From contig FAXN01000046.1 of assembly GCA_001493195.1 (NCBI GenBank), positions 1-60,470 on the forward strand: 60,470 nt of DNA. Reading direction: 5' to 3'. Position 1 is the stretch's first letter. Each line of letters begins with the position of its first letter. The notes under the pieces were generated by a model that saw only the letters and a list, made by a program, of their open reading frames with translations, was not told where the DNA came from and did no database searches. Both the position numbers and the translations under genes were made by a program. This document shows positions 3,715 to 51,285 of this stretch, piece by piece. Origin of the DNA: Sulfurovum sp. enrichment culture clone C5 (GTDB lineage: Bacteria > Campylobacterota > Campylobacteria > Campylobacterales > Sulfurovaceae).

Positions 3715-4097
3715 TCTATCTCCCACTCATCAATGTGATATATAAACTTTTGTCTTTGTTGTATTGTTAAAACAGAATGTATCTTTTTTAAAAAATTTAT
3801 TTGTATATTAGAGGCTTTTTGTGACAATTCTTGATCTATTTTTTGCATTTTTACTTCATCAAATTTTTGTGATAAAAATATTTTTTGTTTTTGTTCCTCT
3901 GAGTGTTCTTTATAGTTTTTGTAATTTTTAATTTCAATCCTATACTGATTTAAAATATTTCTTATAGCATTCTTTTGATTTTCTTTCAAGTCCAAAAATG
4001 TTAAATCTTTTTTATAGTGATGGTGACCATGCTCTTCTGAGTCTTTGTCCGCCAAAGCAATACCAAACAATAAGAAAAAAATGATTACAAATCTCAC
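3711..4097 (-). CDS. Spy/CpxP-like periplasmic protein
   Basis: 128 residues with an N-terminal signal peptide (MRFVIIFFLLFGIALA) and a His/Asp/Glu-rich start to the mature protein (EEHGHHHY) that could bind metal. The rest is a charged helical body with one good LTxxQ motif (LTIQQRQKF) near the C-terminus and a divergent partner (DLKENQKNAI) near the N-terminus, the signature of the CpxP/Spy family. Members act as periplasmic chaperones or as inhibitors of the cognate sensor kinase. Its start overlaps the cytochrome b gene stop by 4 bp and its stop overlaps the regulator start, so it is translationally embedded in the SHP operon. Family assignment is by motif and context; the role as kinase modulator is inferred. 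Confidence 0.75.
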   Translation of the reverse strand: MRFVIIFFLLFGIALADKDSEEHGHHHYKKDLTFLDLKENQKNAIRNILNQYRIEIKNYKNYKEHSEEQKQKIFLSQKFDEVKMQKIDQELSQKASNIQINFLKKIHSVLTIQQRQKFIYHIDEWEID

Positions 4098-45403: not shown

Positions 45404-47143
45404 TTAGTAAAGCGATTGACAGCACAATTGCTTAGGACTTCGAAAGTTATGGTTTATTTTCTCCAAGACACAGAATAAATCTTCAAATTTACTATAATCT
45501 ACGTCATCTTTATTAGAAATAAATTTTGCTAAATTAGTTTTTTCAATTATTTTTACACCATAGGCTATGTAATTAGATACGGCACTAATATTAGAATATT
45601 TATTTTTAATTTTCATATATTTATTTAGTTCGGTTTTCGTTTTCTCTGAGAATTCTTTCCTGTTGACATCAATTTTGAAACCATACTTTTTAATTATTTT
45701 TTTAATTAGTTCTTTATCAAGTAGTTTTTCTATATAGCCTTTATTTTTAAGATCAAGTAAAAAATGATTTTTATAGTCATGTTTTTCAAAATGTTTTTCT
45801 ATTGCAATTTCATCGGCATCTAAGACGAAACAAAATTTTAGGCTCTTATCAATATTTGGTAAAATACATTTACGTATATTTGCAATGTCTAGTTCATTTA
45901 ATTTACTCATTCTAACAATATGTTCATCATATAATATTCTATGCATTTTAATTACATCAGCATAACCACCAAAATAACTGTATCTAAGGTTGAGACTAGT
46001 AAACATTTTTTTATTTTTAAAAAACTTTAGCGCTTCCTTGATATATATAATATCCGTGACACCTTCTGTAAAAACCAGCAATGAATCATAAATTTGTGTT
46101 AACAATAATTTTGCTCTATCTTGTTGCATATTATAAAAATCAAAGTGTTCAAAATAATCTAGTTTTTCTTTTAAAGAAAAAGAACTATCTAATAAATAAT
46201 AGGTATGATAAAATCGAATATAATTTAAGTCATCCGTTCCTTTTACTTGCCCTATAAAATTTATTTTTCCTAATACTATATTTTTAAAGCTTTCTTCTTT
46301 GCTGTCAATATATTTTTTTGTTTGATTATTGAAACTCTTAAAGTGCTTCTTTGAAGCTTCTTCAATACCTTCTGTTTTCCATGAATATAACATGCTTCTT
46401 ACTTGACGGATATATTTTCTAGGTACATTAACTTTTTGGTTAACTTTTAATCCTGTAACAACTTGAGATTGGTTAGCTAACTGAATACGTGTTTTTAGGG
46501 TATTTATTTCAAAGCCATTGTCCACAATTATTTTTTCTATTTCATTTAAAATAAAATCCGTGTCCAAACTATTCTTATGTGTTGAGAATGTAATATCATC
46601 GGCATATCTTGAATAAGTCAGTGAATGCTTCTTTGAAAATTGAATTAAATTATGATCCATTTTTTTACAAATAATATTTGAAATAATTGGTGAAGTAGAA
46701 GCACCTTGTGGTAACTTATTATCATATGAAATAAGTTGAGCAAATTTTGTAGCAAGCGTTTCATCTAAACTGATTGGCTTAGCTAGGAAAATTCCTCTAA
46801 CTCTGCCAAAGTTTATAGTATCAAAAAAATCTTTTATATCTATATTTATAACAATTTGTTTTTTAACATGTTGTTTTGCATTTGAAACAATACTCTTTTT
46901 CTCTTCATTCTCCTTAGATTTAATAAATGCATGAACTGAGTTTGGTGCATTGTATATAGTTTGCAAAATACGATTTAATTTCTTTTGAAGTTTATCTGTA
47001 GTTTCTGGTGGTATAAGTAATCTACGTTTTCCACCGCTTTTTTTACTTATATTTTTTCGTTTGTACTTTTTTTTTCGATTGTCATATAACGCTAATTCAA
47101 ATAATTTTTCATAGTCATTATAAAATTGTTCTAGTATTTTCAT
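45404..47143 (-). CDS. retron reverse transcriptase fused to a TOPRIM domain (Ec67-like)
   Basis: 579 residues. The RT palm has motif A INIDIKDFFD (Asp102), motif B LPQGASTSPI and motif C YSRYADDITFS (YADD 180-183). Both retron-specific signatures are present: region X NAxxH (NAKQH, 88-92) and region Y VTG (229-231). After residue 350 a TOPRIM domain follows with Glu360 in VFTEGVTDIIYI and the DxD pair in FVLDADE (442, 444), as in the OLD-type nucleases. Retron-Ec67, a known antiphage retron, has the same RT-TOPRIM fusion and similar length. The RT makes msDNA from the msr-msd RNA; the TOPRIM part is the likely effector. The start follows AAGG inside the a2 repeat of the proposed ncRNA, 2 bp away. 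High confidence for RT class and fusion. Confidence 0.92.
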   Translation of the reverse strand: MKILEQFYNDYEKLFELALYDNRKKKYKRKNISKKSGGKRRLLIPPETTDKLQKKLNRILQTIYNAPNSVHAFIKSKENEEKKSIVSNAKQHVKKQIVINIDIKDFFDTINFGRVRGIFLAKPISLDETLATKFAQLISYDNKLPQGASTSPIISNIICKKMDHNLIQFSKKHSLTYSRYADDITFSTHKNSLDTDFILNEIEKIIVDNGFEINTLKTRIQLANQSQVVTGLKVNQKVNVPRKYIRQVRSMLYSWKTEGIEEASKKHFKSFNNQTKKYIDSKEESFKNIVLGKINFIGQVKGTDDLNYIRFYHTYYLLDSSFSLKEKLDYFEHFDFYNMQQDRAKLLLTQIYDSLLVFTEGVTDIIYIKEALKFFKNKKMFTSLNLRYSYFGGYADVIKMHRILYDEHIVRMSKLNELDIANIRKCILPNIDKSLKFCFVLDADEIAIEKHFEKHDYKNHFLLDLKNKGYIEKLLDKELIKKIIKKYGFKIDVNRKEFSEKTKTELNKYMKIKNKYSNISAVSNYIAYGVKIIEKTNLAKFISNKDDVDYSKFEDLFCVLEKINHNFRSPKQLCCQSLY

Positions 47144-47145
47144 TT

Positions 47146-47274
47146 AAAACCTTATAACTTTCACTTACCTTTGTCCTTTTTTGTAGGCTTCTAGCATTAT
47201 TTCAGGAAGAATACTTTGTATCCTTTTTCTACTCGTTGCAGGAACAACAACGAAAAGTTAAATAATAAGGTTTT
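47146..47274 (-). ncRNA. candidate retron msr-msd RNA
   Basis: About 129 nt directly upstream of the RT. Ends are inverted repeats as required for a1/a2: a1 AAAACCTTAT..TAACTTTTC (47274-47251) and a2 GAAAGTTATAAGGTTTT (47162-47146), complementary apart from a 4-base bulge. Inside are a hairpin CGTTG/CAACG (msr-like, about 47251-47233) and an 8-bp stem AAGGATAC/GTATTCTT with an AAA loop (about 47225-47207) that suits the msd. A sigma-70-like promoter ends just before a1. The branching G and exact msd limits are not assigned. Supported by position, structure and promoter, not by covariance. Confidence 0.55.
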
Positions 47275-47278
47275 GTGT

Positions 47279-47307
47279 ATTCTATCATAATATTAATTGT
47301 TGTACAA
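47279..47307 (-). promoter_or_regulatory. promoter for the retron
   Basis: Minus strand TTGTAC, 17 bp, TAGAAT: a -35 with 4 of 6 and a -10 with 5 of 6 consensus bases at ideal spacing. Transcription would start about 6-7 bases on, at the first base of the a1 repeat. Confidence 0.55.
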
Positions 47308-47367: not shown

Positions 47368-48156
47368 TCATACTTCAATAGGCTTCTCTGAACCAGCCTC
47401 GATAACAAAGAAATGTTCAACGATATGACTATCAATTTTTAATGCTAAAGCTCTAAGTGTCTTATTATACTCCATTGCATCACCAATATCCACATATTGC
47501 TTTTTCCCGTGTGCAATATCATTCCTTGTTTCCCGTACGGAATGAAAAGTCTTTATTTCATACTCTGATAATGGAACACCAAAACACCACTGAGCAAAAT
47601 GTGGAATATCAACTGATTTCATATCTTTATAGCGAGCATGTAATTCTTTTGCACCAAATGCAGACATTAATTCTGACGGAAAACGAAATTCAGAGTTTGC
47701 GAGAAGTTTTGCATGTTTAATATATTTGTCTTTCTTCCCATTTTTTGGGTATTCCCGTAGTTTACGTACGGAAGTTTTAGCAGGTTCATTTTCAGCATAT
47801 AAAATATGACTCTTTTGTCTACTAAGTGCCATCTCAATATATGTATCAAAACCACCATGATAGTTAAAAAATTCAGTAATCATAGATTTAAAATAAGCCT
47901 CAAAATAACTGAAAGAACTAAGAAGCATTAATTTACCCAAGTTCTTTTTATATGCAGGAATATAATCTCTAAGCCGTTGAAAGTCCGGATCACCATGGTA
48001 GTAATCTGCATCAGGAAGTTTTGCCGCAGAACCTTTTTCTATCGCTTTCATATAACCTTTGAGAGAAGGGACTGCACTACAACAAAGAACAGAAAAATTT
48101 ATTACCTCTTGTACTTGTTCCTTGAGTGTTTTGAAACTATTGGTATTTGAAATCAT
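47368..48156 (-). CDS. HEPN-domain protein (RiboL-PSP-HEPN-like) upstream of the retron
   Basis: 262 residues, mostly helical, no signal peptide. The C-terminal part contains SVRETRNDIAHGKK, in which Arg211 and His216 form the Rx4H motif of HEPN ribonucleases. The N-terminal LLSSFSYFEAYFKSM helix is typical of the RiboL-PSP-HEPN group. Such proteins are toxins or abortive-infection RNases. It ends 61 bp before the retron promoter on the same strand. It could be an independent cassette or an accessory to the retron; the sequence does not decide. The SD AAAGGAATA lies a little far (about 9 bp) from ATG 48156. Confidence 0.72.
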   Translation of the reverse strand: MISNTNSFKTLKEQVQEVINFSVLCCSAVPSLKGYMKAIEKGSAAKLPDADYYHGDPDFQRLRDYIPAYKKNLGKLMLLSSFSYFEAYFKSMITEFFNYHGGFDTYIEMALSRQKSHILYAENEPAKTSVRKLREYPKNGKKDKYIKHAKLLANSEFRFPSELMSAFGAKELHARYKDMKSVDIPHFAQWCFGVPLSEYEIKTFHSVRETRNDIAHGKKQYVDIGDAMEYNKTLRALALKIDSHIVEHFFVIEAGSEKPIEV

Positions 48157-48777: not shown

Positions 48778-51285
48778 TTATACTTTATCAAAAAAATCAT
48801 CTAAACTACTTAGTTCATCTTCTCCTATGGATGATTGTCTTTCTGCGCTATGTCTGACTTTTTTAAGATCATCTTTGTATTTTAAAATAATATCATTTAC
48901 AACTAAATACTTTTCATCTAAATTATATGTTTCTTTTTCTTCTTTTTCTTGCATGACCAAATATTTAAGAAAAGCGTTAGTTTTAGATATTCTGTGAATT
49001 AGTCTATAGCCTTTTTTTTGCTTTGAAAATAACTTAAATTCTTCTTCCGCAGATTTTGTAATACTGTTAGCTGTTTGCTCATCATAAATTTCACAATCTG
49101 AACATATTAAATCTAAATATGAAAAAAAGTGTATTAATAAACTAATAAAATATTCCCCATATGGTGTAATAGTTATACTCTCTATTTCTGGAATGTATTT
49201 ATCTACCTTAATATCTGCTTCTATTAATTTATATTCTATTAATAATGTAATATTTTCTATAAAATCTTCTTCCATATTGAATACTGCAAAGAATTCAGAT
49301 TTCATAACTGATAATGATGTATAGGTATTAATATAGTTATGTAAATATTTTAAAATTCTAATTGATGTAAAATGAGAACCATTTTCTAAATTTCTTAGTT
49401 GAAATATATTTGGAATTAAACTAGACTTTTCTTGGTAAAAATATTTTTGAGGAGTCATTAATGGTTTTAAAACCTGATGTATTTGTAAGTTATATATATT
49501 CCCATCCGTTGCAAGCATCTCATCAATATTCATATAGCCAGAAATGACTAAAGAACGAAATAAGTCCAATGCTTTTCTCATGTCTTTTTGGGCACATGAA
49601 ACTAAAAAACTATACAAATTTGACTTTTTTTGAAAATCATATCTAAAGACATTTAAATATTTTATAAAATTCTCATTTGTAACATTATCATTAAAACTTC
49701 TGTTTTCTGTTAACTTATTAAAAAAACTTTCATCTTCCATTAAATTCATTATGTAATCTAAACGTTGTATAAATACTTTATCTGCTTTAGGAGAAGTAAT
49801 ATGATATTGAACAGTTTCATACGCATCTAATACGCCAACCTTTTTAGAGCGAAAAAATCTTTCTTCTCGTATAGTAATAATTGATAAAGATTTTATTGCA
49901 CTAAAGATTTCAGATAGAATTTGAAAAGAATAGTCTTGTATCTCAGCTGAAAACTGATCCGTATTATCTAAAACTAAAATAATCTCTTTTCTTTCTATTT
50001 CTCTTAGATATTTTGCCAACCTTATAGCAAGCTCTCTATAATCTTTTAAGCTTTCTTCTATTTTAGCTTCGATTCTTGAAGAGAAAGTTTCTGATTCTTT
50101 CGAGTATAAAGAACTTATCTGTTCTTTATAGTTAATAAATTCATCTTTAAATAACACATTCTGTACATCTGAATAACTTCTTCTAAGATTTTTAATATCA
50201 ATTGCATCTAAAACATTATTCCAGATTTTTTCTTTGAACTCTTGCAGGGCATCTTCAGTAGGTGCATATTCTAGTAAATCTAGATGGATAACACTCAACT
50301 TTTCTTGAATTTTTTTAGGTATATCAGAATGTAATAATTTTTTTATAAAAGTAGATTTTCCACACCCTCTATCTCCATAAATTACAACAATATGTTTACT
50401 ATCACTATAGTCAATAAAATTAGTAACTTTTTTAGATAACTTTTTAGATAACTTTTCTCTTGTGTAATTAATAACACCATTTTTTTCTAAATAAGGTGTA
50501 GCATTATCCACCAATAATGAAGATAGCGTCTTCTTAGTATTTTCTACATGTTCTTCAACATAACAATTTTCCAAGAAATCCATATCATCAACTTTGAGGT
50601 CACTAAAATAATATCTTATTGGTTTTTCAAGATATTGTGCAAATTCATTAAAATCTACAGCTACATTGAAAGATGAAATATTTTCTTTTATTGAATAAGT
50701 CTGCTTTGATTGTATTCTTTTTTTTTGAAGTTTTTTATATAAACTTCTATCTTTTATTAAACTGTTATAGTTTAGTAAATTATAAGATTCTGTAAAACTT
50801 TCAGAGAAAAATTTTAAGTCGTATATCACGAATGCATTTAAATTCTCAAAATCTTGAGAAAATACAGTAAAAAATATCCATATATTCCCATTAGTAATTG
50901 CTCCATGTTCTACGCCCTTGATAAAACAATATTGTCTAACTTGTTCAATCGTGTCTTTAATATTTTTATCTGTTAATAAAGTTTTTATTTTTATGAGTGC
51001 GCTATTTTTATTGTTTATATTTATGTTATTTGGAAGAGTAAAAGCCAAACCTTCTTTTTTTGCTTCTATAATTAAAATTATTTTATTGTTTTGATCTAGC
51101 AATGAATAATCAGAATAACCAACTTTATTAACATGTTCTTCTGCAATGATTGCATTTTTAGGGATAGATAAAATTGAATATAAAATTGTATCAATGATTC
51201 TACTTCTAGTTGTTGCTTCATTAAGTTTTTCTCCGTTTGAATTCAATGATTCTATTAATTGAATTGCATTTTCATGTTGCTTCAT
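48778..51285 (-). CDS. PD-(D/E)XK nuclease fused to a P-loop ATPase, candidate defence protein
   Basis: 835 residues. The N-terminal domain resembles the type I restriction HsdR N-terminal nuclease: GYSDYSLLD (Asp59), ILIIEAKKEG (Glu74-x-Lys76) and the typical AITNGNIWIFFT. From about 295 a STAND/AAA-like ATPase follows with Walker A IYGDRGCGKSTF (304-312) and Walker B EIILVLDNTDQF (Asp438), then a long helical C-terminal region without repeats I can define. No methylase or specificity gene is nearby, so this is not a type I system. The nuclease-plus-STAND plan matches Avs-like antiphage NTPases, but the family is not certain. Minus strand, upstream end of the island; a repeat element precedes it. 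Confidence 0.75.
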   Translation of the reverse strand: MKQHENAIQLIESLNSNGEKLNEATTRSRIIDTILYSILSIPKNAIIAEEHVNKVGYSDYSLLDQNNKIILIIEAKKEGLAFTLPNNININNKNSALIKIKTLLTDKNIKDTIEQVRQYCFIKGVEHGAITNGNIWIFFTVFSQDFENLNAFVIYDLKFFSESFTESYNLLNYNSLIKDRSLYKKLQKKRIQSKQTYSIKENISSFNVAVDFNEFAQYLEKPIRYYFSDLKVDDMDFLENCYVEEHVENTKKTLSSLLVDNATPYLEKNGVINYTREKLSKKLSKKVTNFIDYSDSKHIVVIYGDRGCGKSTFIKKLLHSDIPKKIQEKLSVIHLDLLEYAPTEDALQEFKEKIWNNVLDAIDIKNLRRSYSDVQNVLFKDEFINYKEQISSLYSKESETFSSRIEAKIEESLKDYRELAIRLAKYLREIERKEIILVLDNTDQFSAEIQDYSFQILSEIFSAIKSLSIITIREERFFRSKKVGVLDAYETVQYHITSPKADKVFIQRLDYIMNLMEDESFFNKLTENRSFNDNVTNENFIKYLNVFRYDFQKKSNLYSFLVSCAQKDMRKALDLFRSLVISGYMNIDEMLATDGNIYNLQIHQVLKPLMTPQKYFYQEKSSLIPNIFQLRNLENGSHFTSIRILKYLHNYINTYTSLSVMKSEFFAVFNMEEDFIENITLLIEYKLIEADIKVDKYIPEIESITITPYGEYFISLLIHFFSYLDLICSDCEIYDEQTANSITKSAEEEFKLFSKQKKGYRLIHRISKTNAFLKYLVMQEKEEKETYNLDEKYLVVNDIILKYKDDLKKVRHSAERQSSIGEDELSSLDDFFDKV

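Follow-up and report, generated by a model that had tools for sequence, protein, structure and literature searches.

The window, i.e. the whole 60,470-nt stretch of DNA that was analysed, carries on its minus strand a 579-aa open reading frame (45404-47143) in which a reverse transcriptase (RT) is fused to a Toprim nuclease domain. Its start lies 2 nt past the interval 47146-47274, which the first-pass annotation had correctly delimited as a retron ncRNA abutting the RT start, leaving the strand unstated; the RNA is encoded on the minus strand and transcribed from 47274 to 47146. The retron anatomy, the conserved a1/a2 ends and the ribosome site within a2 were all recognised by sequence comparison, which indicates that the locus is almost certainly a single-gene RT-Toprim retron, a known kind of system. 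The following features were distinguished:

45404..47143 (-): RT-Toprim fusion protein
45449..46084 (-): Toprim effector domain, approximately residues 354-565
47146..47274 (-): retron ncRNA (msr-msd), 129 nt
47146..47161 (-): a2 inverted repeat, AAAGUUAUAAGGUUUU, ending 2 nt short of the RT ATG
47150..47154 (-): UAAGG, Shine-Dalgarno-like (SD) run within a2, ending 6 nt upstream of the ATG
47162..47167 (-): UAAGUG directly 5' of a2, presumed template start
47162..47206 (-): presumed msd template, with putative limits
47207..47225 (-): SL2 hairpin, AAGGAUACAAAGUAUUCUU
47232..47254 (-): SL1 hairpin (msr), UUCGUUGUUGUUCCUGCAACGAG
47258..47259 (-): A16-A17, conserved, in the structural position taken by the priming G in relatives
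47260..47274 (-): a1 inverted repeat, AAAACCUUAUUAUUU, nt 1-15 of the RNA
47279..47287 (-): extended -10 sequence, TGATAGAAT, with a1 beginning 5 nt downstream

A gene on the upstream side of the ncRNA (47368-48156, minus strand), separated from it by about 94 nt, encodes a 262-aa RiboL-PSP-HEPN protein (Pfam E-value 3.7e-11, weak AbiD match). It was rejected as a retron component, as homologues of the retron do not share it, and is probably a separate defence gene. Another gene (48778-51285, minus strand) encodes a protein of 835 aa that has a P-loop ATPase region (AAA_16) and a weak mad8 match; its N-terminus, judged by eye, resembles a restriction-type nuclease domain. This arrangement suggests that the two genes and the retron form a small defence island by purine-synthesis genes. 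The genes neighbouring the retron are not common to its homologues, therefore the unit consists of the ncRNA and one gene.

The RT-Toprim protein and its relatives

Among the PADLOC models, the 579-aa protein was matched best, and over its full length, by RT-Toprim_I-C (728 bits), followed by the RTs of TIR-type XII and protease-type XI retrons (345-347 bits); the Ec67-type I-C models gave 272 bits. The RT-Toprim_I-C models in question, PDLC02965 and PDLC02968 (724-728 bits), represent a second RT-Toprim subfamily and are also matched end to end by the proteins of L037, L038, L040, L044 and L056. The retron RT motifs SNAKQH (NAxxH), RYADD (YADD) and VVTGLKVN (VTG) are present. The AlphaFold2 model used was built on a 42-row alignment (pLDDT 83.4; a model from four sequences only, with pLDDT 49.5, was unusable), and its best Foldseek match was retron Eco2 (E-value 7.4e-27, 623 columns, 24% identity). 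No other RVT_1 protein was found in the genome (G000, a Campylobacterales draft of 1.6 Mb in 105 contigs).

An alignment to RT-Toprim proteins, both Eco2-like and others, from which the Toprim domain was delimited, showed that E360, D364, D442xD444, E472 and K535 are kept, a set equal to the catalytic set of Eco2 (PMC12405507) save at the position of S513. The place of this Eco2 metal ligand (residues 470-472 of the window protein) is occupied by Y in all four members of the Campylobacterales clade described below, and by C in L037, L038 and L044; the neighbouring catalytic E is retained.

A whole-genome search yielded three close homologues (L003, L004 and L005), all from Campylobacterales, with 45-59% amino acid identity to the window protein. 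L003, located on the same contig as L032, was identified as Sulfurimonas. Further Campylobacterota genomes gave no clade members beyond these three, and no relatives were found in viral contigs, whether searched with the RT or with patterns of the ncRNA. In the RT-domain tree the four loci form a fully supported clade (100/100), apart from the Eco2-like I-C clade (100/99) and placed among types XI, XII and other RT-Toprim proteins, where the deep order is poorly supported; the tree is compatible with one origin of the second Toprim group but does not establish it.

Because it joins an RT to a Toprim nuclease, the protein is, by its sequence, of type I-C. We do not file it in the Ec67 family, because its score with NCBIfam NF038237 (281.6 bits) is below the curated cut-off of 450 and it falls outside the Eco2-like clade in the RT tree. 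Retron-Eco2 (Ec67), itself of type I-C, shares with the window a single RT-Toprim gene and an upstream ncRNA that has a1/a2 ends and a single short msr stem-loop; however, it has a long DNA hairpin, which the msd of the window clade lacks. Retrons of RT-TIR type XII have a related RT (347 bits) and a similar SL1, but their effector is a TIR and not a Toprim domain.

Structure and conservation of the ncRNA

Folding of 47146-47274 as minus-strand RNA gave a z-score of -2.59, with one of 200 shuffled sequences as good, and the plus-strand structure was rejected as no better than chance (z -1.01). The long complementary ends claimed earlier do pair as a1 and a2 in the consensus fold, and their end-to-end stem score beats 996 of 1000 shuffles; the helix is not, however, one continuous duplex, but comprises 10 bp, a mismatch and shorter runs. 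Both hairpins said to be enclosed by these ends are present and conserved, SL1 with 8 pairs, formed in 100% of cells and showing a compensatory change from G-C to A-U in L003, and SL2 with 87.5% of cells paired. The locus has the msr-msd with complementary a1/a2 ends adjoining an RT gene by which a retron is recognised. No match to the ncRNA was found in Rfam, and a covariance model detected a single copy in the genome.

Conservation of the a1/a2 pairing in homologous loci had been set beforehand as a check of the first-pass annotation. The RNA is kept upstream of the RT in all three close homologues, with the pairing ends, SL1, the second hairpin and the short gap between a2 and the start. 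The invariant cores of the four-locus alignment lie in SL1, in UAAGUGAAA, which precedes a2, and in AUAAGGU within a2; the UAAGUG adjoining a2 is likewise identical in all four. In the named structure 92% of cells are paired, versus 39-55% when the partners are slid, and double changes occur at three pairs, one of them being the G-C to A-U replacement in SL1. As these figures come from four related rows of one phylum, and the structure was derived from the consensus of those same rows, we consider the covariation support for the predicted structure good but not overwhelming.

Both ends of the ncRNA are conserved and its middle is variable, a pattern general to retron RNAs. The template between SL1 and a2 is shorter in the window (64 nt) than in the relatives (79, 84 and 108 nt). 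The cDNA fold of the window has a z-score of +0.45, and in none of the four loci did the cDNA fold significantly better than shuffles, i.e. no stable msd DNA hairpin was detected.

The promoter proposed earlier, TTGTAC-17-TAGAAT, stood in part. Its -35 element (TTGTAC, 47302-47307) is a weak match, agreeing with the consensus at three of six positions, and promoter-like sites in the region are at chance level (19 versus 19.6 in shuffles). On the other hand, the position of TAGAAT upstream of a1 is conserved: the -10 hexamers directly preceding a1 are TAGAAT, TATACT, TAGAAT and TATAAT in the four loci, with an extended TGn in three. This conserved -10, the sole positional evidence, points to a transcript start at a1.

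A ribosome site inside a2

The UAAGG within a2 is the sole SD in all four loci, at the same place and 6-9 nt from the start codon (ATG; GTG in L003), which bears out the earlier assignment of the RT ribosome site to a2. Masking energetics were computed for three loci of the clade: opening of the region from -15 to +3 costs 7.8 kcal/mol in the window, 8.5 in L004 and 13.4 in L005, and drops by 3.5, 5.5 and 9.2 kcal/mol, respectively, once the first 20 nt (a1) are removed. We regard it as likely that the SD is masked when a1 and a2 are folded. The window masking is the weakest of the set that shows it (+3.5 kcal/mol), the mean unpaired probability changing merely from 0.37 to 0.42.

By contrast, a1 leaves the ribosome site unmasked in seven of the eight Eco2-like control loci (effect of -3.0 to +0.3 kcal/mol), the exception being L108 (+5.2). 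Within the PDLC02965/PDLC02968 subfamily, the SD is found in a2 only in the four Campylobacterales loci; L040 and L056, with the same kind of protein, have an SD-like run outside a2. A similar arrangement recurs in a second lineage. L041, L050 and L051 (about 3750-3870) are alphaproteobacterial TIR-type XII retrons with the predicted RT start codon itself inside a2, and there a1 adds 9.7 to 15.4 kcal/mol. The Campylobacterales TIR-XII locus L006 shows no masking (-6.4), its a2 ending 15 nt before the start. We found no earlier description of retrons with the SD in a2 among open-licence PubMed Central papers.

The RT-Toprim of L003 (3198-3288, minus strand) starts with GTG and is longer at its N-terminus by about 30 residues, and in both L003 and L005 the RT open frame extends back through a2. 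An in-frame GTG upstream of the start in these two loci was rejected, as it is not conserved in frame in the window or L004.

The computed masking and its recurrence make the coupling of RNA folding to RT synthesis, suggested in the first-pass annotation, physically plausible and recurrent, weakest as it is in the window itself; regulation of RT synthesis would go a step beyond these energetics. We hypothesize that one transcript from a1 would both supply the msr-msd template and form the 5' leader of the RT-Toprim message. Pairing of a1 with a2 would turn the RNA into a template that the RT can bind and enclose the RT's SD within the helix so formed; opening of a2 would allow the RT to be translated. 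One molecule would thus be template or messenger at a time. RT-Toprim bound to its own leader would keep translation low, and the dose of the toxic nuclease would thereby be matched to the RNA/msDNA that silences it. The Eco2 complex inhibits itself, and its Toprim domain is toxic on its own (PMC12405507); by analogy with that system, the window retron may act in abortive anti-phage defence. As an explanation of the whole locus, such a template-or-messenger RT-Toprim retron seems probable to us. Taken separately, a physiological role of the SD masking is close to an even question, on which we lean slightly to the negative.

The SD might instead lie in a2 merely because retron cassettes are compact, with ribosomes competing against an A/U-rich helix and no regulatory coupling. 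This is a real possibility, although not the one we would expect to hold. It fits the A/U-rich helix and small accessibility change of the window, and the a2-to-start distances of the other retrons of the set, which range from overlapping to tens of nt. It fits less well with an SD position kept in all four loci despite diverging flanks and msd, or with the start-codon masking that recurs in the TIR-XII retrons.

Absence of the canonical priming guanosine

In almost all characterised retrons, DNA synthesis is primed by a guanosine that stands at the inner end of a1 or follows it closely (PMC6868368); in Eco2 this guanosine is rG15 (PMC12405507). The first-pass annotation had planned to fix this branching G, but none is present at the expected place. 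Unlike Eco2, the window, L003, L004 and L005 lack it: no G occurs in the 18-19 nt that separate SL1 from the CC of a1 in any of the four loci (P ~0.03-0.05 per locus by composition, the four not being independent). In a hand-curated table of 19 loci, with the junction located via a shared short inner helix, G occurs in 12; the seven others are the four clade members (A), L037 (U), L048 and L067 (both A). The clade thus has its conserved A16-A17 where relatives have the priming G, and in the covariance-model alignment, an independent check, the G of L043 falls on model position 16, i.e. on A16. The cleanest pair is AUAUUU[G] with GUG/AAA in L066 versus UUAUUU[A] with GUG/AAA in the clade. L112, from the type XI/XII/Toprim set, is perhaps also non-G (A or U) at its predicted junction.

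All nine Eco2-like loci have G at, or no more than 2 nt from, the end of a1. In the second RT-Toprim subfamily of PADLOC a junction G is present in L038, L040, L044 and L056 and missing from L037 and the Campylobacterales four; the TIR-XII loci L041, L050 and L051, unlike the window, also have it. The first G of SL1 would be a poor substitute primer, since L003 has an A there, paired with U. The position of Eco2 R184, which contacts rG15, was tried as a marker of the missing G and discarded: it is N, Q, Q and E in the clade and uninformative, because G-bearing relatives also lack R. A literature search for G-less retron RNAs as such, in open-licence PubMed Central papers, gave nothing on point.

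The priming G is a conserved feature of retrons with a known exception, therefore the absence of a guanosine at the a1 end does not remove the four loci from this group. That exception, Retron-Sen1 (Se72), is a validated producer with, like the window, no apparent priming G (PMC6868368); it differs in being plasmid-borne, in making double-stranded DNA and in its other accessory genes. We presume that msDNA is made at the window locus, but with the canonical G absent its synthesis cannot be taken for granted.

It could be argued that the retron RNA no longer makes msDNA, or not by the usual route, and is a decaying relic or a structural RNA only. The lack of G between a1 and SL1 in all four loci would agree with this, as would cDNA folds equal to shuffles in the window and L003, and a change of the priming guanosine (rG18) abolishes defence by Eco8 (PMC12887533). 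We nevertheless consider such a loss improbable, because SL1, a1/a2 and the catalytic residues of both RT and Toprim are kept over 45-59% amino acid identity, which is unexpected of a relic, and because Retron-Sen1 makes msDNA without an apparent priming G (PMC6868368). It is hardly credible that the RNA is an ordinary leader with an attenuator and not an msr-msd: an SD within a helix by the start codon is indeed found in many leaders, but no terminator-like site was found in the region, the a1-SL1-SL2-msd-a2 architecture and the RT type point to retron RNA, and the covariance model, run against 94 sources, gave weak matches at the expected place upstream of related XI/XII/Toprim retron RTs (L006, L043, L051 and L037).

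Within the template-or-messenger reading, which we prefer, a bolder proposal may be made, although we hold it to be rather doubtful: msDNA synthesis in this lineage would be primed by a conserved adenosine, either A16 or the A after it, and the ncRNA would at the same time be a switch of the RT ribosome site. The cDNA would then start 5'-CACTTACC, joined to A16/A17.

A ribosome site in a2 would be a simple way to tie the synthesis of a toxin-bearing RT to its silencing RNA, and the arrangement recurs in a second retron lineage. What specialists would not expect is that the priming G is missing throughout a conserved clade. If the scattered A/U junctions (L037, L048, L067 and perhaps L112) are real, the requirement for G would have been relaxed more than once. 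A conserved G-less clade offers a direct test of whether G is obligatory as the 2'-OH donor, and could broaden the range of retron tools.
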